64,000 nucleotides of DNA from Diphasiastrum complanatum (lineage: Eukaryota > Streptophyta > Lycopodiopsida > Lycopodiales > Lycopodiaceae), in NCBI GenBank assembly GCA_029204225.1, contig CM055109.1, forward strand, positions 3,114,147 through 3,178,146, read 5' to 3'. The stretch's first letter is position 1. Each line of letters opens with the position of its first letter. The notes under the pieces were generated by a model. That model had not been told where the DNA came from, searched no databases, and saw nothing but the letters and a program-made list of their open reading frames with translations. Shown here in pieces: positions 34,955 to 47,100 of this stretch. A program made the translations under genes and the position numbers.

Positions 34955-35695
34955 CGAATTCAAATTTTGAATTTATGAAAGTCGAATTGTTTTTACACTT
35001 CATAGGTCCTTTTTTTTAGTTTTATTTTGGTGAGAAGATATGTTGCAAATTTTTTTTAATTTTTCATTTTGAAATGTAAAAGAAACAGTACAAAGGGAGG
35101 GGCCCCCCCCCCCTTTGTACCTAAGAAATTTTCTTTTGTGAAAATGTAAAGGGGGTTGTACACTCCCCCCCCCCCCACTCTCCCGACGCTCCACCTTGCA
35201 CGGCCTATTGGCGCACACACACCCCGGGCCAGCACACTCCGGGCCACTGGCCCGTCTCAATGCCCAAGGCCCTAGTCGCGAACATTTGCTGAATCCGAGG
35301 CGCTGAATCCGAGGCGAAATCCGGGGCGCTGAATCTTGGGCTGGCTGAATCCGGGGCGCTGGGCATTGAGCTGGGCCAGCGGCCCGGGGTGTGTGTGCGC
35401 CAGGGAACCACAAGAGCAAGTACAGGGTGGCTCCCTTGACGGCGGCCGTGTAGCGTGCAGCGAGAGAGAGGGGGGGGGGGGGGGGGGGTGGGTACCACCC
35501 CCCTTACATTTTCAATTTTTTTTTTCTTAGGTACAAAGGGGGGCCTCCCCCTTTGTACCGTTTCTTTTAAGTTTCAAAATGAAAAATAAAAAAATTTGCA
35601 ACATATTTTCTCACGAAAATAGAGCTTGAAAAAAGACCTATGAAGTGTGAAAAAATTTTCAATCTTCACAAATTCAAAATTATATCTATCTTTTT
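34955..35695. mobile_element. Foldback element (near-complete hairpin, about 740 bp)
   Basis: The left half is the inverted complement of the right half. Outer arms run from ACACTTCATAGG (34996) to the C-tracts (35165-35180), and on the right from the G-tract (35470-35489) to CCTATGAAGTGT (35637-35648). Matching inner landmarks are AGTACAAAGGGAGGGGCC (35087) with GGGGCCTCCCCCTTTGTAC (35540), and GCGCACACACACCCCGGGCC (35211) with its complement at 35383-35402. The centre, about 35280-35350, holds GCTGAATCCGAGGCG-type short repeats. Arms are interrupted only by small indels. The central 250 bp are very G/C-rich in an A/T-rich neighbourhood. No coding region. It follows closely after the Copia remnant. 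Confidence 0.85.
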
Positions 35696-35984: not shown

Positions 35985-36205
35985 ATCTCAGTCACGAGGC
36001 ATAGCATCAACAGCAGCATTACTATCAAACAGTTCAAATACATCGACAAGGGGAATAAGACCAACAATATGAGTAGAACCATCAACAAGCTGTTTTAGAC
36101 ATGTTGTTTTTTACCAACATCGGTCATCGACAGAGTACACACATAGGAAATTTGGACAGTGACCGTCAAAAATTTCATCTCCATCAATAACACTGGGTAT
36201 CGAGT
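35985..36205 (-). pseudogene. Unrecognised minus-strand coding fragment
   Basis: Read leftward from about 36205, one frame gives about 70 codons with a single stop, beginning SIPSVIDGDEIFDGHC and including HIVGLIPLVDVFELFD. The length, the hydrophobic-acidic pattern and only one stop suggest an old gene piece. I do not recognise the family. It lies at the left edge of the unusual gene cluster and may be one of its members. Confidence 0.3.
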
Positions 36206-36965
36206 GTCTACCTAGACATCAAGCAAAACCCTAGTTCTCAAAGCCAAAAATACTGAGTTTTACTGAGGTAAAAATATGCTCGATGATTATGGAAAAAAGG
36301 GCTAATTTGAAGAGGAATCTATGAAGATCTTGAGGAGTTACTAGGTGTGTCAAAGTGCGTCGAAAATGAAAAAATTCATGAAATTTCGCAAGGGTCATGA
36401 TGACGTCGCACATATTCCACCGACAGGATAAGAACAAGGCCCATGAGAAAAAAACAGACTGGAGAATGGGAATGTCATTAAACACTTGGAGTAATGCCAA
36501 GAAGCATAGAGACGGATGTTGTTGGGGAAGATACTCTTGACGGAATCCTATAAAGACAGATTCCTAGGTCAAAGGTGCTCTTCATTCACTTTTGGATACT
36601 CCACATGTAAAACAAGAAGACAAAATATTCCAACAGGTCCAGTTTAGCTTAACCTTACTAGTAATGTGTAGTTAACATGACACGATTATGACGCATGCAA
36701 CTGCGACTTCAAGAACCTATGACGCTCATTAACTAACTTTTTTAAATTTGAAAATGAGATTGTGTCCCTCGTTTTAACTAGTGAGAGATTAAACATAGAA
36801 TCTCAGGTACGCCATGGATGAAGAATAGTGTCTATTTTCTTTTTGGTTTGTGAGCTGATGTTTGCGGAGATGTCTCAGTTTCATTTACACATTGTTCTCC
36901 CTACCGAGAATGCTCCGATAGCTAAAAGATGAGTAGTGAAAGAATCCACAGTTTCTCCACTTGAT

Positions 36966-39650
36966 ATGATCGCTCATAGAATCAACCAAAGAAAGAATCA
37001 CAATTCGTGGATTGACGAAAGTTTGTATCCATTGGATCCGAGCTCGATGCAAGTTCCACAATTCCAATCCATCACACAATTAATAAAGTTTTTGTGTGAC
37101 GGAGAAAACGGTTTACTGGGTTATTGTGAAAGATTGACGACTTATGGTGTTGCAAACTCGGTTCAGAAAATACAGAGTTTAGAATGTATGTTAAATAGTT
37201 TGCTTGCTGACTCTAGAGAAAAAGAGACCGCATTATTACAAACAAAAGAAGATAATGCACGTTTACATAATATTATGTTAAATTTGAATGCAAGTAATGA
37301 TCAATTCCGACAAGTTGTTCAGACATTACGTATATCAAATGACCAGTTAAAAGAAGAAACTCGCATACTAGATAAGAAATTAAAAAGAAACAAGCGAAAA
37401 AGAATTTTGAAGGACATTGATGAGCTTTCGCTAAATGGAGGCCAACGGAGAAAAAAGATTCAAGCATTCAAGTAAGGATTTGATTTGAATCAGTTTTATT
37501 TTAGTTTTGTGAAGTAGCATGACATTTACTATGTGTCCTATGGGTTTCTTGATTTTCATAATCATTTGTAGATTAGCATTGGTTGCAAATGAGCATCTGA
37601 AGGACAATGACCTGATCGGAAAATCATTGAGTTCGGTATTGACAACCAAGTCCACAAAGTCTTTATTGGACAATAATCGATATTCTCGAATCAAGTCCAA
37701 GGTCATTGAGGCTTTGATGAACGAGGTCAGTAAGGTATTCGACCGAACGTTAATTCAAGGAGCATGTGATTTCTCAAGTATTATCAGGGAGGCATATGCC
37801 AGTATATTTAAAATTATTAAAGAGGCTTTTGGACAATTGCATTTACGAAAATTTCCCATTCCTTGCCCTTTTCAGATAAGATTGGAGAGAGATGTATTGA
37901 ATAAGGGTATGCAAAACGTCATTGGAATCCCTTTTCACATCAATGAGATTTACAATTCAAAGTCTGGCAATTTGTCATATAATTCTACCAACAACTTATT
38001 TGTGGATTTGAATCATTTATTGAGATTTATAGTGAAATTCTAAAATATTACAAGTGTTAGTATGAGCAAACTTACTTTGGTGGTCAAGCTAGATGAATCG
38101 GAAGTTATAAAAGGACAAAAGTTGGAAAGAGTAAGTATTATTCTCGTGAATGGAGCATTGAGCAATGCAACAAATTCAAGGGATCTCAACTTCAGTGTGC
38201 AATCAGAAAACAACATATGGTGGCTAGCATGTTTTCTAGTAAAAAATGGCTGTTATTTATGTGCAATTTCTTTTGGTAATTGTTTTGAATATATAAAAAC
38301 TTGTGATTCCATATGTTGAACAGGTTATCAAGGAGGATCACGATGTTCTTTCCTGGATTTGTAGCAGAACAAGTTATTCAGATATCATAAAGGATCATAT
38401 GAATGACAAAGTACTTAGTGTTCTTGAAAGAGGTGAATTTTTTGTGGAATGGCATTTAGCTGGAGACTTGAAGTCATTGAAATGTATGTTCAATGTATCT
38501 CATGGAGCAAATGCGAAACATCCATGTCTATATTGTATGAAATCATCAAATGACATTTCAAGGAACATAAGAGTTTCAAGAGATATTGAAGATCCCAACT
38601 GGAAACCAGTACTACCAATTCCTTTACAAAATGTGCATATTTGCACACTTCATGGAGAGGTGAGGATCATAGAGAAATTAATATATCTTCATATCTTGTT
38701 TGCATGTAATACTAAGCCAGAGTCAGCATCAAAACAAGCAATCGCTCGATTGGAGGAAGTGTTGTCAAAAGCGGGCCTTCATAAAGGCCATGTTAAAATA
38801 CAAAAAGATGAAAATCTTTCGGGAAAAACAGGAAACGTACCCAGTAAACCTAGCATAGGAGTCAAAGCTCATCAATTTTTATCAAATCATTCTAAAGAGT
38901 CGTCTAAGATCCAATACTCGGTTTGGAAAGATGTTATTTCTACAACAGAAGACTTTGAAGATAAAGGAACAACAAGGGTAAAGAAGGTTGAAGTTTGGAA
39001 AAAGTTTGATTATATGGTTGAAGTGCTTAGAAAAGACACAATTTCATATGCAGATGCACTCCTATTGGAGAAAACAACAATAGAGTTTGTAAATGGAGTT
39101 CGGGTGGCTTGGGGATCAGATCACATCACCCACTACATGGTAAGATACATTTGAACAATATCTTATAATTTTATAATTTTAGTATAACTTGCTTGATAGA
39201 TTCTAACCAATGCATATTTTTCTAACCAATGCATAAATCTTTGATATTGCAGCACATACTAAGGCATCATGTATCACTTTTTGCAAAAAAGTATGGCACA
39301 CAATAACATATCGCGCAAATTTCGATGTCCGCGTCCGACATATAATCGAAAATTTCATAATCCGTCGCAATCCGACACGTCGAGTTCCGACGTCCTAGTA
39401 AAAAATCCAAAATTCACAGTCTGGCAATCGGAAAATATGGGCGACGTGTTTTTTCGACGTCCGCGACGAATTAAAAAAAAATTAAACCCGCGATTCACGT
39501 CGCAAAACACGTCGCAAATCACGGCGGGTGTTGTTGTGGCAGTTTGAGTATATGGTCCTCACAAGGAATGGAGAAATCACATTGGCAGGCAAGAGCAGCA
39601 TTTCATCGAAATACACAACATGGTGGAACATCCTCAAAAAATAGTTACAT
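36966..39650 (+). pseudogene. Candidate DDE transposase with introns, RAG1/Transib-like motif order
   Basis: Exons fit GT-AG rules in frame: to 37471; 37572-38238; 38324-39139; 39253-39303. The introns of 100, 85 and 113 nt restore continuous frames. The first in-frame ATG is 36966, but an upstream exon is possible. The N-terminal part has a coiled coil (about 37180-37400) ending in a basic run (KKLKRNKRKR). The middle carries KLDESEVIKGQK (Asp codon 38092), then WHLAGDLKSL (Asp codon 38465), a CxxC pair HPCLYC (38525, 38534), IPLQNVHICTLHGEV (His 38651), and near the C-terminus HILRHHVSLFAKKYG. A first Asp, then Gly-Asp-x-Lys, then CxxC, then IPL-x-x-V...LH is the layout I know from a large uncharacterised animal family, and it resembles RAG1/Transib cores. 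Defects: an in-frame TAA at 38041, a CpG-rich insertion at 39303-39545, and a stop in the exon after it (39546-39650, QGMEKSHWQARAAFHRN). Confidence 0.6.
39303..39545. other. CpG-rich insertion inside the transposase gene
   Basis: About 240 bp with more than 20 CG dinucleotides and words such as CACGTCGCAAAACACGTCGC, in a region where CG is otherwise rare. It separates KKYGT from the continuation QGMEKSHW, and ends in a possible acceptor TTGTGGCAG. It is either an insertion or a retained intron of different origin. Confidence 0.6.
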
Positions 39651-39840
39651 TATTTAGCTATTCCAATGGTTTTATAGACGAGCTCAAGTTTGATACACAA
39701 CAAGATCAACTGAATATCAAAAATTCAAAAAAGCATGAAAATTCATAAGCCAAAATTAGATTGATGGCATTCAATAAAGATCAAACACGTGTCATAAATT
39801 TTTTTTAAATTTCACATACATTAAATGGAAAAGAGTACAA

Positions 39841-41285
39841 TCATTTTTTTTCATTGTCTCTAAGGACAATTTTTGCTGTGTGGTCATGAAAAAACTTTTT
39901 CCTATCATACGGATCCAAAAATCGAGTGGATCGCCTTTTGCTCAGATCTATATATCCTGATAGAATCGCTAGAGCAGATGATCTCATAGGAACATTTTCT
40001 GGCACGTAATTGAACACTTTAAGAGCAACATCTCTTTTGACAAAAATGATTCTATATGTATTTTTTGGATATTTATGCCCTTGGGCAAAATAAGATAGGG
40101 CCTTGATGGCCATGATTAAGGTTCTCGCATTAAAAAAAGCCTTTCATGAATAATACAAATTTCGTTATTTACAAAATGTCAACGATTTCCTACAACACAT
40201 AATCAAGTGTTAGTCAAACTAGCAGATCAATCATCAGTTACACGTTAAATAGTAAATGATTTTTGTGAGGAGGTGTACTTACCAAATCCTCCTTGTCAGC
40301 TTGGATCACACCAACAGCTTCTAAATTGTGACTAACAATAATAGTCGATTGCTAGTCAGCTGGAATAGTATATATATGAGAGGTGGCAAATACTTTTTTT
40401 GAAAAGCCAAAAGCTCTTCCTCACTCGGCATATTAGTCTCATATGCCCTGCTCTCAGATAGCATCCTTTGAAGGGCATTTGTGCCACTTGCCCATTCTAC
40501 CTGGTCCTCATAGACGATGCCCTCTATGAGGTCGTCATCATCAAAGTCAATAAAATCATTAAATTCAGAAATCATCCTTGACATAAGAGATAATATCTCA
40601 TCTTCTTTGAGATCCATTACATCTCCGATGTCGCTAATGGACAAGAATGCAATATCGTCCATATGGTACACAAGGAGGTCCATCAGGGTTCTGCTCTGAT
40701 CAATCTCGCTCACGGTAGATAAGGGAGAGATAGACAGAGAACGAGCCTTGGTAGGATTATACTGTTGTGCTTGTCTGACCTCTTCTACATCAACTAAAAC
40801 CTCATCAGTAATGGAAACATCTGAAGCCACACGAGTAGTAGGGGCAGGCAAACCAATCATGGACGACCCAGAAGATTTTGCCTCATTAGGGATAAGAGCA
40901 GATAAGAAAAACACGAAGGCCATACCCTCCTGAACGAAGCGACATACTCGATTGTATTCCTGACAAGGTATGACACGTTTAAACAGATCGATAGGTTTGG
41001 TAAACTTACGATCATGCCTTTGCTTGGCACTAGGTTGAGCACAAGTCAAATTTGTGAAATGCACAAATCTTAGGCCGTCCATCAGAAGGGTACCCTATTG
41101 CAAGCACTCATAAAGATCCTTGTACAGTTTGGGAAAACTTTCCTGTGCTCAATAACAAATCTCTCTATGTCAAACTGAAAATCGAAATAGGACAAAAAAT
41201 GGGCCTGTCTGTCGCTAACCCCAGCATCAACAAGGAAAGAACTAAGAGCTCTATCATAGATCGAACTAGTAGAAGAGGAGGCCAT
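39841..41285 (-). pseudogene. Unrecognised minus-strand gene of the cluster
   Basis: Starts at ATG 41285 (MASSSTSSIYDRALSSF). It is interrupted near 41090, where the continuation DLYECLQ-stop-GTLLMDGLRFVHF lies in another frame, then is open for 253 codons to 40321 with an acidic block (DDDDLIEGIVYED). The frame ...HNLEAVGVIQADKEDL then runs into a splice donor at 40282/40283 (GTAAGT). A matching acceptor lies at 40190, and a last open exon (40113-39841) ends KKFFHDHTAKIVLRDNEKK. Introns of about 90 nt match those of the neighbouring transposase gene. No known domain is seen. It is convergent with the transposase and divergent from the histone-like gene, so it and the histone-like gene may share the promoter region at 41560-41900. 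Confidence 0.45.
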
Positions 41286-41589
41286 ATTGATATGAGGCGC
41301 CGATTAGCAGCGGGACATAAACGGTGTAATCCTGGACACGTGATGGCAATATACACTGTACACGATTCCGGATATCGAAACTACGCGCCAGGGGAGCAGT
41401 GCGACTATGGAACCGTCTGTTGGGTGCGTGGTAGTGATATTGTATGTACTGATTTTGGAGTAGGTCGGTTTCCTGGATTCAATATGCGAAACTGATTTTC
41501 GAAAACGACACTCATATATATAGTCTAATTTAGAGCATCTGAACCATACACACGTTTTGAAAACGTGCGGTCAAAATTGCCACACATGT

Positions 41590-41860
41590 AGAAACGATGG
41601 CCAAATCATTGCATGACATGTGTACACTTCAGATCCTGACACGTGTCCTCGCACGTGCATGCCAACTATACGATCGTACGAGTCAGTCGTCCCCTGACAC
41701 GTGTGTGGCCCAGATCGTGACACGTGTCCTCGCACGTGCATGCCAACCATATGGTCGTACAGACCGGTGATGTCTGACACGTGACAGGTCTGTGTGATGA
41801 CACGTGTGACCACATGTGCGGGTTTTGGAGGTGTCACATCACACGTGTGATAATGATGGG
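41590..41860. promoter_or_regulatory. Array of CACGTG boxes in a tandem repeat
   Basis: At least seven ACACGTGT/GCACGTGC/ACACGTGA words in 270 bp. An 81-bp unit (containing GACACGTGTCCTCGCACGTG) is repeated twice, at 41638 and 41719. CACGTG is the G-box recognised by plant bZIP and bHLH factors. The array sits between the minus-strand gene start at 41285 and the TATA box at 41874. Confidence 0.7.
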
Positions 41861-41873
41861 ACATTCTGCAGGT

Positions 41874-41880
41874 ATAAAAG
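41874..41880 (+). promoter_or_regulatory. TATA box of the histone H3-like gene
   Basis: TATAAAA in the context GCAGGTATAAAAGGACG, 256 bp upstream of the H3-like ATG. Two copies of CTCAGATTTCTTCGTTC follow at about 41905-41950 in the presumed leader. This is the best core-promoter match in the cluster. Confidence 0.6.
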
Positions 41881-42129
41881 GACGTTTTGGGCTCATACTT
41901 TCATTTCAGATTTCTTCGTTCCCTAGTGCTCCTCAGATTTCTTCGTTCACTTGCGTCCCTCGCTATCAGCATATTGCTACCACGGGCTCAGAGAGTCAAA
42001 TACAAGTATAGCTTCCCCCTCCGTGCGTCGTAGCGATACGCCATCTTCCATATCGCCATCACGCACCTCCCCTATCCGATATGCACTGTTCTTTCTCATT
42101 GGCGCGTCATAACGATACTTTAACTCGAA

Positions 42130-42520
42130 ATGGCCCGTACCAAGCAGACAGTATGTCTTACCACATTTGCCCTGCCTCCTCGTCCTCTTGTACAAAGGGT
42201 AGTGGGCACTAGTAAGAGAGTAGGTCGGCCTAGAAGACCATGGTTAAGGGATATTAGGAGACTACAGAGAACAACGAATCTTCTGATTCCCCGTGCTCCG
42301 TTCTACAGGTCTGTGAGATTAGTGACAAGGTCACTCTCACATGATGTTCGCTGGAACATAACACCCCATAGAAGCCCTCCATATTGCCTATGAGGACTTT
42401 CAAGTTAAACTCTATGAGGACTCTACGCTTTGCACAATGCACGCCAAGAGAGTTACCCTCATGCCTCAGGACATGCATCTTGTCATGAGACTGATGAGTA
42501 CATTACAATTAGGTCTTTAA
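42130..42520 (+). pseudogene. Histone H3-like gene with one frameshift
   Basis: From a true ATG the product starts MARTKQT, identical to the first seven residues of H3 including Lys4. The rest of the tail is unlike H3. The histone fold returns with LRDIRRLQRTTNLLIPRAPF, matching the H3 alphaN/alpha1 region, and VRW before alpha2. At a run of four C (42364-42367) the frame shifts by one. In the next frame alpha2 to alpha3 follow: IEALHIAYEDFQVKLYED and LCTMHAKRVTLMPQD, the most conserved part of H3, ending at TAA 42518. Allowing for the one base, the length is 129 codons against 135-136 for H3. H3 packages DNA in nucleosomes; Trp in VRW and the AYEDF segment recall centromeric H3, but loop 1 is not longer. 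It lies between unknown transposon-like genes and has its own TATA box. Base changes are far beyond a recent H3 copy. Confidence 0.75.
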
Positions 42521-42524
42521 GAGT

Positions 42525-42838
42525 GGCTTCACCTCTAGGCCACCACCTATAGAGAGAGGGCATGTTCTTCAACGAAGAAGGAGAAAGCAGACCAAGCCCA
42601 CCAGGCCTGCCAGGCATAGGGTAGTACTCAGCGAATCACCATCCCCCCCTCATATATCTTGTCCTTTGGTTGGACCATCACACCAGTTTGCAATGCGTTC
42701 TTCTCCTCTCACCACCCCTAACTATTCAAGTAGTTCCTCTTCCATTCCCTCCATTCCATCCCACAATAACGAGGATATGACCTCTAATGTAGATAAAATA
42801 ATATTGGATCCAGATATAAGTTTAGTAGGTGATTTTTA
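42525..42838 (+). other. Open basic/Ser-Pro linker frame between the H3-like and peptidase-like parts
   Basis: About 100 codons open in one frame, with a basic start (QRRRRKQTKPTRPARHR) and then Ser/Pro-rich sequence, ending DISLVGDF-stop directly before the peptidase frame. It lacks an ATG at its start. It could be the C-terminal extension of the H3-like protein or the N-terminus of the peptidase, joined by frameshifts. Confidence 0.45.
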
Positions 42839-42844
42839 AAAGGA

Positions 42845-43880
42845 TCTTTGTGTAAGATTCTTGTTGATCTGAAAGATTCATTTTTGGATTCTGAGAGGTA
42901 TATAGTTTTTGATGAATATGTTGCCAAAGAGGTTGATAAGCTAGGAGGTCAATTTTCTTTTTGTCTAAGTTTAATTAATTATGTAAATCACATAAATAAA
43001 GACTTTTGTGATGCCCTGAAGGAGAAGACAGCAGATATATTAGATCCAGTTGTGGAGGCTGGTTTGATGTATTTTGTAAATAGATGTAAATGTGATGATA
43101 CTAAGAATATTGGAGTTGTGCTGTCCTTTTTTGCACACAACCTTCATAGTCCAACTCAGGCGACACAATATCTTCTCCATACAACCTCGGAGACCAAAGT
43201 CTTTATTATTCCATACTGCCAAAAGTAAGTGATTACATAGAATATATTCAAGTAATATTTTTAATAGGTATTGTAATTCCTTCAGTTTAACTAATTATCT
43301 CTTGTTTGCAGTAAGCATTGGAGTATGCATATAATCTCCCTTAGGGAAGATTCAGATGAGATCATTAATTCCATCTATTTAAAGATGAATTCCTTGAGCT
43401 CTACCCATGCCGAAATGGACGTGATGTACATCAAAATGTTGTCATTTCTGCCAAGGCCAGATGGGGCCACTGTAAATAGCCACCTGGAGATTGTTGATGC
43501 AGAAGTAAATATTTCTCATCAAGTATCTGATAGGTAATATGATTTGTTTCTTCAGAGTGCACAACTAACCTATTATGCGTTTTGTGATTGAAGTCAGTTC
43601 AGCAAAATGATGGACGTAGCTGTGGATGGTTCTCCATCCGCAATATACAGGACTTCTTAGAGTGGTATATCATGCAATGCGGGGCTCCAGATATACGAAA
43701 GGTAAATAGACTAGTTAATGGCCTAACTAAGTTATCTTTGATTTGGTTCTTGATAAGTCAATTGACTCGGTTATTTTGGATTTGCAAGATAAATGTCGAG
43801 CATTTACAATGAATGAGATATATGAGTTTCGTCAACAAAGAACTTATTATCTCATGCAACACCCAGTCCAGCTACGGAAA
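42845..43880 (+). pseudogene. ULP1/C48-like cysteine peptidase with introns
   Basis: The first frame (to 43224) is open without an ATG at its start and joins, across a GT-AG intron 43225-43311 (87 nt), to the frame 43313-43533. The joint reads IPYCQNKHWSMHIISL, where His-Trp is the first catalytic signature of ULP1/SENP peptidases. After another gap comes QQNDGRSCGWFSIRNIQDF (43600-43655), matching the Gln...Asp-x-x-x-Cys-Gly signature with the nucleophile Cys. The catalytic Asp, expected shortly after the His, is not obvious. C48 enzymes remove SUMO or related proteins, and relatives are carried as extra genes by plant Mutator-like and CACTA elements. I could not fit the second intron in phase, so this copy is probably broken. 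It stands 330 bp after the H3-like gene on the same strand. Confidence 0.6.
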
Positions 43881-44275
43881 CGGGAGGCCAATCAAGTCCA
43901 CAACTGACACTAGTGCAGGGTGGAGATAATCCATATTACTTTGAGTTGTAAATAATAGATTAAATAAAGATATACATTTTTTATGTAATGCCTTGTGAAT
44001 AATTATGGGCATATAGAAAGATAGAGACAATGGGGTAAAAGCATCCATTGTTAAATACAGGACGCACATGTACATTCTCAAAAAATGAGAAATATATTGA
44101 TATTTATGAGAGCTTTTACAAATCTTGTATCATGATTGCTCTATTATCTGAACAATTCCGTCCAAATCTTTGCATTTGATTTTCTCTTCATGTCTTTTAC
44201 GTATCTGCACAAACATACATTAATCAAATCATAGTTAGTGATCCGAATATTGACAAAAAGGATAATGAGTACAAA

Positions 44276-45380
44276 TCAATATACAAATTCATAGATTTCA
44301 CATACCAATTTTTCATCTAATATAAAGCTGAAATATTCGGGGATATCTTGCTGTAAAAGTGTCAGTTCCGTTCTAATGTAGAATAAGGTCCAGTCTTGCT
44401 CAACCTCAATAGTAATAAGTAAATCCCCATTTGTCATGATATCAATGCATATACGATCAGCGTGTCCAATGCTGTCTAGATCTTGATCTAATGGGGCCCA
44501 AGTACCATTGTGTTCTTTCCATCTCTGATAATGAAATACCATACTAAGCATTTGCTTTTCTATACCGTATCTAAATGATATGGATGAATGTTTGATTATA
44601 CAAGCAATATCTACAGTGGATCTTATATCCCAACCTTTGTCCATGAATTTGAATAAAAAATCATCTGATAGATTTTTGCAAACAAATAAGGTGGGAGTTC
44701 GATGCACCTCCGTGTTTGAAAAAGAGCTGACAAACAATGACATTGGAACAAACCAGCTTGAGTGCACATTTCTTGATCCAGTACTATTTTTGAGTGGCTT
44801 TTGTACATCATTATATAGCTTGGAACGAAAACATTTTATTATATTGTCGTTGACTGCAATCCACCACACGTTATCTTGAAAATTAGGTAGATGTATACAC
44901 TCTAGTTTTTTCATTCATCCATTTGTGTCTAGAATATACATAGCATCATAAAAAAATATTCTAGAATCTGCAAGTTCTTTTGCCGTTCGTCCTGTGTATT
45001 GCAATTTGCCAATTTATGAATGGATGACATCTATAATACTTGAAAGATACGCCACATATTCCCATTCATGTATATTTGAAGGATATAGATCTGCAATACA
45101 AAATCATAATAAGTTCCGATTCATAAATACGATTACGTTTTAAAAATGACAAGCAATCCAAAAAATTAAGATACTTACAATTACACTTTCGAAAATCATG
45201 TGGATTTACAGCCTCCACATTAAGTTCTGAATGCATATAAACATGTTGAATAAGCACCTCTGAAATGGTTTGTCCTCCTTGAGAAACTTTGAAATCAATA
45301 ATCTGCCCTTTCCAATAAGATCTATATGTATACTTGGCCTTTTTCTTTTGGCAAAAAGCCCCTCTCGCCGATGAATGCAT
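44276..45380 (-). pseudogene. Unrecognised minus-strand gene of the cluster (two or more exons)
   Basis: Exon 1 begins MHSSARGAFCQKKKAKYTYR (45380) and ends at a donor GTAAGTATC near 45180. The acceptor TTGTATTGCAG lies at about 45092, and the next exon reads YPSNIHEWEYVAYLS. This frame continues, with two stops, through LADSRIFFYDAMYILDTNG into the 212-codon frame 44914-44276 (KKLECIHLPNFQDNVWWIAV ... DGDLL-like acidic end). Trp-rich and acidic, with no domain that I know. It is convergent with the peptidase gene. Short introns and scattered stops are shared with the other cluster genes. Confidence 0.4.
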
Positions 45381-45479
45381 TAGTACTTAAGAAGCCTTAT
45401 GATATTCACGAGCAATCCATGTGCCATCGTCTTCCCTCATTATAAAAAATTGTAGAGCATATCAAGGATCTCGGTCTCG

Positions 45480-47100
45480 TTCTCATCGCCATAGCTTGAA
45501 GAGTTCACGTTTGAACTTGTCAATATGAGAGTCCAGAGTATAATAGGCACCAAACCTATTGTCAAGCTTCTTGTACCAAGCTCGTGATGTCTGCTTCATA
45601 CCATAAATGCATCTCTGCAACCAACAGACATATTGTCGATTGTCGGGGTCTTCAAATCCTTCAGGCTGCTTCATGAAAATTTCTTTCTCTAGTTCTTCGT
45701 GGAGAAAGGTTGTCTTCACATCTATCTGGTGAATTTCCAGATTGTGTTGTGTAACATAAGTAAGGAGTAGTCGTATGCTTGTCATCTTAATGGCCAACAG
45801 TGCCATCTAATTTCATTTTCTTCTTGTACACCCACTTGCAGTCGACGATCTTTTTGTTTTCTGACAGTGGCTCTAGCGTCCATACCTCGTTTCGCCTCAT
45901 CAACTCGATCTCTTCTTATATTGCCTGCTTCAAGAATTCTCTCTCTGGACTCTAGACAGCTTCTTGATATGTCGTTGGCTCTTCAGTGAAGCTGCAGTAT
46001 TTGAATTGCATGTCTTCGCTCCACTGAAGATTGTCAACGTAACGGTCTGGAGGTCTTCTTTGTCTTGTTGACCTTCTGGGTTGGTTTTGCCACTGCTCGA
46101 ACGTTTCTTGTTCGTGAGGTTGATCTTCTACTTCCTGCTGCTTTTGAGTCTGTGGCTCACCATTCTGATTTGACGTCTGTCCTCGATCTCCCTCTTGGAT
46201 TGGCAAGTGCGAAGATCTCATGGCCTTTTTCATCTTTTAGTCCAGGGAATGTGGACTCATCAAACTTCACGTCTCTACTTGAAACAATTTTTTCGTGGTT
46301 GGATTGTAGAGTCTGTACACTTGTGATCCGTTCGAGTACCCGACCATGATTATTTGATCTGATTTATCATCGAGCTTGTTCTTTTCTTCTTTTGGAATGT
46401 GCTTGTATGTTGCACATTCAAACACACGTACGTATGATAGATCAGGTTTTCTACCTGTCCACATCTCGTACGGTGTCTTATTTTTCAGCGCTATCATTGT
46501 TGATCTGTTCTGCAGGTGTACTACTGTAGCTATTGCCTCAATCCAAAATTGACTTGGCAATCGAGCCTGTACTATCATGCATCTGGCTCCTTCAACTAGC
46601 GTCTTGTTTTTTCTTTCTACAACACCATTATATTCTGGTGTGTACGCAAGAGTGAACTGATGCTCAATCCCTTATTCTTGGCAGAATTTTGAAAATTCTT
46701 TGCTCTTGTACTCACCTCCATTGTCAGATCTGATGATCTAAATATTCTTTGAGTTGTGTTGCTTTGCAAATGCCATAAACTTCTTGAAGGAATCAAACAC
46801 TTCAGATTTCTTCTTTAGGTAGTAGATCATAGTCATCCGGCTATAATCATCTATGAACGTCAGGAAATACCTCGATCCTGAAAGTGAATCCATTTTCACC
46901 GGTCCACAGACATCTGAGTGGACAAGCTCAAGAACTTCTTTGGCTCTTCTTCCCTCATGTGTGAATGCATTCCGATGTTGTTTGCCTCTCTAACAAGCTT
47001 CGCAGAACTCAGTATCTGAAGAAGATGAGATTTTGTAGTCGCAAAGCTTTCACGAAGCAACCGCGACTCTCTTGCGCTTCGGATGGAGTTCAGATGCGAT
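45480..47100 (-). pseudogene. Copia fragment: integrase to start of RT
   Basis: Leftward order: integrase core traces (47100-46600), integrase C-terminus (46578-46267, SQFWIEAIATVVHLQNRS, TPYEMWTGRKPD), a Gln/Glu-rich linker with RRSTRQRRPPDRYVD (46233-45952), and the RT start (45806-45483, with EIHQIDVKTTFLHEELEKEIFMKQPEGF and CIYGMKQTSRAWY). Stops and frameshifts separate each piece. The RT catalytic box, RNase H and LTRs are missing. Its left end abuts the unusual gene cluster. Confidence 0.8.

Follow-up and report, generated by a model that had tools for sequence, protein, structure and literature searches.

A DNA transposon with a histone H3 gene

The window analysed here, 64,000 nucleotides of the lycopod Diphasiastrum complanatum (assembly GCA_029204225.1, contig CM055109.1, positions 3,114,147 to 3,178,146), contains a decayed copy of a DNA transposon whose genes are ordered transposase (+), M (-), a histone H3-ULP1 fusion (+) and N (-) (Table 1). 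An earlier note on this DNA had described a cluster of five or six genes at 35985-45380, bounded by copia fragments on both sides, and had proposed that it was a single large DNA transposon. This proposal held, as the cluster recurs as a unit with definable inverted-repeat ends. All the reported genes are present, but tblastn and the comparison of families gave four genes instead of five or six: the histone H3-like and ULP1-like sequences, taken as separate, form one fusion gene, and the unknown minus-strand gene and minus-strand fragment at 44279-45504 are both exons of gene N.

A 9.6-kb query spanning the cluster gave long collinear matches at many places in the 1.74-Gb genome searched. Comparison with six fetched copies of the same family (family 1) showed that the part common to these and the window is 36634-45560 and not 35985-45380: the common sequence begins at 36634 in copies C1, C10, C2, C5, and C8, and extends to 45560 in C1, C10, C2, C4, and C5. 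Copia sequence does adjoin on the right, but as a neighbour and not as a part, since the common sequence stops, and copia coding sequence starts, at 45560. The other copies share another 92 bp leftward and ~268 bp rightward beyond these borders; the window copy is therefore clipped at both ends, and we rejected 36634 and 45560 as true element ends and treated them as truncations. Furthermore, the window copy is without ~90 bp at 40179 that are present in other copies, and its transposase gene contains a private insert of ~235-239 bp, absent from the other compared copies, that looks like a small non-autonomous element.

Copy C10 is complete. It spans 9,063 bp (C10:34714371-34723433, minus strand) and ends in ~33-bp imperfect inverted repeats of the form CATTA...TAATG (CATTAGAGGAGTTACAAACATCAAAAGGGCCGT and, on the other strand, CATTACAAGGGTTCTCAAACTTAGAAGGGCCGT), with all four genes between them. 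This copy is nested in an element of a second family of the same lineage.

Genome matches were scored for 40 candidates per query, the query's own locus included. All 40 matched for the transposase piece (39 besides the window, at 91-96%) and for the H3 piece (39 others, at 90-93%), so the further genomic copies that the earlier note had suggested looking for do exist. A first pass counted 875 candidates with the left end as query, 682 with the right end, 467 with the H3 piece, and 4,340 with a transposase piece; each time, 40 of 40 scored candidates matched. Because these counts are large and every scored candidate matched, hundreds of family 1 copies are likely present in the genome. An unplaced contig (G000 C3639:26340-34404) and a chromosomal copy (C8:20494739-20502803) gave identical match scores; the assembly thus probably holds second-haplotype or duplicate pieces, and copy counts may be inflated. 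The idea that independent pseudogenes came together by chance between copia remnants draws support just from the window copy being decayed and clipped; it is refuted by the same unit occurring elsewhere in family 1 and in other families, and we give it practically no credence.

Table 1. Features of the transposon copy in the window.
Feature	Position	Strand	Basis
Transposon copy (family 1), missing 92 bp (left end) and ~268 bp (right end)	36634..45560	+	Copy comparison; full ends in other copies
Transposase gene, several exons, decayed	36825..39742	+	tblastn of C10 exons; conserved in four families; residue spacing
Private insertion in transposase gene	39299..39537	.	Copy comparison; GGCA repeat flanks (read by eye)
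Gene M, fold unknown	39925..41357	-	Relatives in five families; tblastn
Intergenic region of the divergent gene pair M and H3-ULP1	41614..41849	.	Imperfect repeats (families D1, D5, D7), CACGTG cores
H3-ULP1 fusion gene	42130..43812	+	tblastn, copy comparison, Pfam
Gene N, at least two exons, fold unknown	44279..45504	-	tblastn, families

Insertion without target-site duplication

Both ends could be read at one insertion in six family 1 copies (C1, C10, C2, C8b, C7:16.04M, and C16:23.5M). In one set of nine fetched end pairs, both ends were readable in two. Copy C5 has both ends, its right part being inverted and displaced, and was left out of the flank comparison; in C8 the left end is altered and there is no right end. 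Inverted-repeat ends were thus found where the earlier note had suggested looking for them, but the target-site duplications it had also named were absent: the duplication was 0 bp in 6 of 6 copies.

We then searched for empty sites with six sites made by joining flanks. All 40 matches listed corresponded to the C10 site, and 40 of 40 spanned the junction; in the five of these that were fetched and aligned the junction bases were identical, none gained or lost. Copy C2 sits in apparent copia reverse-transcriptase sequence, and its joined flanks ran uninterrupted when compared by eye with a similar adjacent stretch (81% over 54 nt). Family 1 inserts without duplicating or losing target bases. 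Insertion without target-site duplication is rare among DDE transposons.

The histone H3-ULP1 fusion gene

The first exon of the fusion gene is open over 364 amino acids in family 1 copy C4, where it begins with MARTKQ, includes a complete H3 fold and a linker, and extends into the ULP1 domain. In the window, the H3 tail and fold occupy ~42130-42510 and are followed by the linker and the ULP1 protease in three exons, with a frameshift near 42363-42368. Pfam histone family PF00125 matched the window itself (E=4.5e-6), copies of four families at E ~1e-20 to 1e-24, and five families overall. For proteins joined from exons, the histone and Peptidase_C48 (PF02902, cut-off 20.7 bits) matches were E=1.1e-20 and E=4.7e-4 in C4 (20.5 bits, just under the cut-off), E=1.3e-24 and E=7.8e-7 in family 3 (29.6 bits), and E=5.1e-22 and E=1.5e-5 in family 4 (25.3 bits). 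PDB searches with the family 3 and family 1 proteins returned histone H3 in the 60 rows shown, a few of them H3/CENP-A chimeras; a PDB search with the family 4 ULP1 part gave no match. HW, QQ, and SCGW of the expected ULP1 motif (catalytic His, Asp, Gln, and Cys) are present in families 1, 3, and 4 by our own reading, but the Asp position reads Asn. The first H3-ULP1 exon of family 3 was found at at least 119 places, all 119 scored of 9,623 candidates, and most of these 119 keep the exon in frame over 331-343 amino acids.

Five families share the histone gene

Families 3-5 were found with a tblastn search using plant H3, in which 150 of 6,060 candidates were scored. The 150 comprised 13 H3 genes at 97-99% identity, a number of partial matches (79-93%), and a long tail at ~44-57%. 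We fetched 15 places from this tail. Two were H3-ULP1 fusions, defining family 3 (L068) and family 4 (L070), and the other 13 had an H3 fold and no ULP1 in the frames of the 2-kb pieces. One of the 13, L069, was extended to 11 kb (L084+L069+L085, C10:47283506-47294506) and showed the order transposase-M-H3-N. At this one locus, which represents the whole gene set of family 5, M and H3 are inverted relative to the other families. The family 5 H3 gene is CENH3-like and ~400 amino acids long, beginning MAWTKQTARD and continuing through glutamine- and proline-rich stretches to the H3 fold. Eleven of the other 12 tail loci match the L069 locus by blastn, and L072 does not. The possibility that such CENH3-like repeats are unrelated to the element was rejected, as the same gene neighbours are found at the family 5 locus. 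Family 5 is very abundant (L059-L067, L071, and L073 besides L069), and the stretch matched across the 11 fetched loci (counting L069) reaches from H3 into M.

Families 2, 3, and 4 have the order and strands of family 1, with protein pieces ~25-84% identical to it. The family 2 element that adjoins the C10 copy has transposase pieces ~31-84% and an H3-ULP1 exon ~35% identical to those of family 1; copia sequence truncates this element on the right, and N was not detected in it. The surroundings of another family 2 copy (C14) and of family 4 contain all four genes (transposase, M, H3-ULP1, and N), ordered and oriented as in family 1, and those of family 3 contain transposase, M, and H3-ULP1 in order, with N not detected. 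Pairwise identity among the H3 folds of the five families is 41-62%. Each of the five families has an H3 gene alongside the transposase, and in four of them H3 is fused to ULP1. The earlier note's view that these genes travelled together was thus borne out by the same set and order in family 1 copies and in families 2-4 (N not found in family 3), with the M/H3 inversion in family 5, and its link between a transposase and histone H3 holds in five families.

Motif and inverted-repeat scans of families 2-5 gave a plausible left end in family 3 (TATTAGAGGGGTTCTCAA, two mismatches) and no right end; in family 4 the same type of scan gave left-end matches only with five mismatches. Since no full ends were obtained, ends and duplication status are shown for family 1 only.

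A large multigene unit with a histone and two unknown proteins, M and N, could also be a fragment of an endogenous virus; some giant viruses, for instance, carry histones. The inverted ends, precise insertion, exon-intron genes, and many copies speak against such an origin. Furthermore, no capsid, polymerase, or packaging Pfam family was above cut-off for any of the four genes, and IMG/VR yielded relatives of neither the transposase nor the family 3 H3-ULP1 exon, although a search with a few short peptide patterns is a weak one. We consider a viral origin highly improbable.

Purifying selection on the H3 fold

We next compared nonsynonymous and synonymous changes (dN/dS) between variants found in a single copy, which mostly reflect decay after insertion, and variants shared by copies, which mostly arose during spread. 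The measure is crude: the majority codon served as yardstick, transitions were weighted 3, and no tree was used. The family 1 test dropped two duplicate copies (L046, L052) and rows below 80% identity or half coverage. For family 3, 20 copies were picked from the 119 listed with preference for few stops (17 of 20 had none), and possible duplicates were kept.

In the family 1 H3 fold (27 copies), dN/dS was ~1.34 for singletons (20 synonymous, 72 nonsynonymous) and 0.28 for shared variants (41 synonymous, 31 nonsynonymous; p=4.5e-6). The two wrong reading frames, a control run for this fold only, gave shared-variant values of 0.92 and 1.31. The family 3 H3 fold (21 copies) showed the same difference, with 0.81 for singletons (22 synonymous, 50 nonsynonymous) and 0.22 for shared variants (56 synonymous, 35 nonsynonymous; p=1.4e-4). 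These comparisons indicate purifying selection on the H3 fold during the spread of families 1 and 3. With shared-variant values of 0.28 and 0.22, the fold was thus useful to two families while they moved.

Outside the fold, the N-terminal part of ULP1 in family 3 gave 1.02 for singletons and 0.37 for shared variants (p=0.006), and thus part of the protease was useful in this family as well. The signal was weaker in the family 3 linker (p=0.056), and the singleton/shared difference was not significant in the tail, linker, or ULP1 exons of family 1. Too few variants were shared to judge the transposase, M, and N of family 1 (6-11 copies); only the N-terminal part of the transposase gave a nominally lower value (p=0.013), a single catalytic piece gave a higher one (1 synonymous, 7 nonsynonymous), and the remainder showed no significant difference. 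The family 5 H3 fold (12 copies) was likewise not significant (p=0.48, few shared variants). Of the parts measured, the H3 fold shows the strongest constraint.

The H3-ULP1 gene might instead be a functionless passenger captured from the host, and most copies are indeed decayed: the H3 sequence is without stops or frameshifts across 130 codons in 8 of 27 family 1 copies, and 26 of the 119 listed family 3 exons, by our own count, are without a stop. Plant transposons also often carry pieces of host genes, according to the available part of PMC13317346. However, shared variants point to purifying selection in two families, and H3 is retained in five families whose folds have diverged so far; a mere passenger is therefore very unlikely. 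Because H3 is fused to ULP1 in four families and its fold was under purifying selection in the two with enough copies for the test, the link between transposase and H3 is stronger than originally proposed.

An H3 tail that keeps lysine 4 and lacks lysine 9

Lysine 4 is present in 26 of 26 readable family 1 copies and in 20 of 21 family 3 copies. Where position 9 is readable, it holds L or I in 25 of 25 family 1 copies and D, N, or A in 21 of 21 family 3 copies. Two family 2 copies have the tails ARTKSTARA and AWTKSTARA, and single copies of families 4 and 5 read ARTKQIARPKS, with lysine at position 10, and AWTKQTARD. All five families therefore keep lysine 4 and none has lysine 9; most tail lysines are lost while the H3 fold is kept.

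The transposase and known transposon systems

The transposase consists of an apparent coiled-coil N-terminal part (36825-37301) and a catalytic part (37690-39742). With residues placed by motif position on hand-joined exons, the family 1 spacing reads D-96-D-20-C(2)C-204-H(4)H-20-E. The D-D spacing is 97 in family 4 and 95 in family 5, the D-to-C spacing is 20 in families 2 and 5, and the C-to-H spacing is 205 in family 2. H(4)H-to-E is identical in all four rows of the alignment, of which family 1 is complete, family 2 is without a stretch, family 3 without the second D and C(2)C, and family 4 without an intact C(2)C. In RAG1 the corresponding residues are D600, D708, C727, C730, H937, H942, and E962, and their spacings resemble those of family 1. 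Pfam searches with the transposases of four families gave no transposase match and two chance-level rows for domains of unknown function, and a PDB profile search returned just three FMR1 chains (E ~0.4-0.5). From the residue layout we infer a cut-and-paste enzyme with a DDE core arranged like those of EnSpm, Transib, and RAG1.

In the available part of PMC12730594, Plavaka, EnSpm, and Transib are described as having C(2)C and H(3-4)H pairs that lie between the second D and the last E, and the layout is to that extent common to our element and the CMCT group (EnSpm/CACTA-Mirage-Chapaev-Transib, including Plavaka and the RAG1 core). The family 1 ends likewise start with CA, but they read CATTA...TAATG whereas CMCT ends read CAC...GTG, and EnSpm makes a 3-bp target-site duplication (PMC12730594, same part) in contrast to 0 bp here. 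As no known transposase profile was matched and both ends and duplication differ from EnSpm, we regard the transposase as RAG1/EnSpm-like in layout and not as a member.

Spy elements of the PHIS superfamily share the absence of a target-site duplication with family 1, as far as the available part of PMC4482050 describes them. Spy, however, inserts in AAATTT, no such target was found in the family 1 sites read, and no PHIS-type Pfam transposase matched. KIU/Kaonashi and Vandal elements are, like ours, plant DNA transposons with a Ulp1 domain and accessory genes in the available part of PMC13317346. They are Mutator-like elements without terminal inverted repeats, whereas family 1 has inverted ends, no Mutator-like transposase Pfam family matched here, and here Ulp1 is fused to histone H3.

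In this lineage a RAG1/EnSpm-like transposase layout is thus combined with duplication-free insertion, a pairing relevant to where enzymes of this kind position the two strand transfers. Such insertion suggests an unusual strand-transfer complex, and the H3 module might serve transposition itself as a docking or targeting tool, holding the complex on nucleosomes or selecting chromatin, with ULP1 processing element or host proteins and silencing not being the target. That the H3 fold is the part under the strongest constraint and that an H3 gene accompanies the transposase in every family fit such a role. Conversely, inspection by eye of 15 left and 11 right flanks revealed no common target motif, and H3 is encoded separately from the transposase, unfused. 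A docking role is possible but doubtful.

A possible anti-silencing function

We propose that the window holds a decayed copy of an autonomous-type, four-gene DNA transposon whose H3-ULP1 fusion would act as an anti-silencing factor by placing a SUMO protease in chromatin; judged from sequence comparison, we hold this with about even confidence. The H3 module would pair with host histone H4 and, built into or docking on nucleosomes, would bring the SUMO protease to chromatin, where it could strip SUMO from silencing factors. A tail that cannot carry the K9 mark and retains K4 would favour an open state, and the element would thereby escape silencing. M and N are assumed to be helpers in DNA binding or regulation. 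Anti-silencing has precedents on plant transposons, namely Vandal VANC and, with its Ulp1 domain, KIU (PMC13317346, available part), and this VANC/KIU system of Vandal elements, whose proteins remove silencing, is the nearest precedent for purpose. A bolder form of the proposal is that the lineage has made its own nucleosome part, a K4-keeping, K9-unmarkable H3 joined to a SUMO protease, such that chromatin containing it would resist and dismantle silencing. We put this forward tentatively, and would sooner expect it to fail than to hold.

Several results weigh against an anti-silencing protease carrier. The family 1 ULP1 exons showed no significant selection (shared-variant values of 0.62-1.01), the family 1 H3 tail as a whole showed no constraint (1.43), and in the family 3 tail singletons and shared variants did not differ (0.63 vs 0.60), even though lysine 4 is nearly invariant. 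The position expected for the ULP1 catalytic Asp appears, in our own reading, to carry Asn (NSL/NSA) in families 1, 3, and 4. Moreover, no ULP1 was found near the H3 gene of family 5, and the protease is therefore not essential to the H3 module. This last result, together with the loss of tail lysines from a retained fold, would also fit a protein that interferes with host H3 or CENH3 by poisoning it or serving as its decoy, a dominant-negative histone and not a protease carrier. Yet the protease stays fused in four families with its N-terminal part constrained in family 3, and harming the host would also hinder the element; we consider a decoy unlikely.

If, as in the proposed anti-silencing function, the H3 module enters nucleosomes, the element would offer a direct test of whether selfish DNA can alter its own chromatin, and a natural H3 without K9 for testing the dependence of silencing on K9. 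Transposons that encode proteins acting on chromatin or DNA marks are known: the available part of PMC12730594 describes HarbingerS and MuDR families with a SET methyltransferase, and fungal and oomycete elements with TET/JBP or SET enzymes. Those elements carry mark-changing enzymes, whereas here the cargo is the histone itself, joined to a SUMO protease; a core histone in such a fusion, kept under selection, is apparently new. Our literature search, with subscription journals and Repbase largely outside its coverage, found no report of a transposon carrying a histone H3 gene among the listed titles and abstract openings, and a description elsewhere is therefore possible. One of the listed papers, PMC3538342, contains the phrase 'encodes a histone'.

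Genes M and N and neighbouring features

The family 5 M gene was recognised by its position and by a DxFxxRRGG motif in common (our own reading), not by a tblastn match. No Pfam match was obtained for M of families 2, 3, and 4 or for the joined N of families 1 and 4. A match of an N-exon piece (45069-45386) to PF03307 (E=0.003, 18.1 bits vs a cut-off of 35) was taken as chance. The imperfect repeats between the divergent M and H3-ULP1 genes are spaced ~80 bp apart, and this region is possibly a shared two-way promoter or binding array. At the family 4 locus (L078/L070/L077), a repeat beginning TTAGAGCACC occurs three times upstream of the transposase, at positions 1375, 2585, and 2770 of the joined locus, and these repeats may be subterminal binding sites or ends. 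Directly left of the element in the window, 34963-35681 forms a long imperfect fold-back with a GC-rich centre and arms of 57 nt (89%) and 48 nt (88%), which resembles a hairpin transposon.

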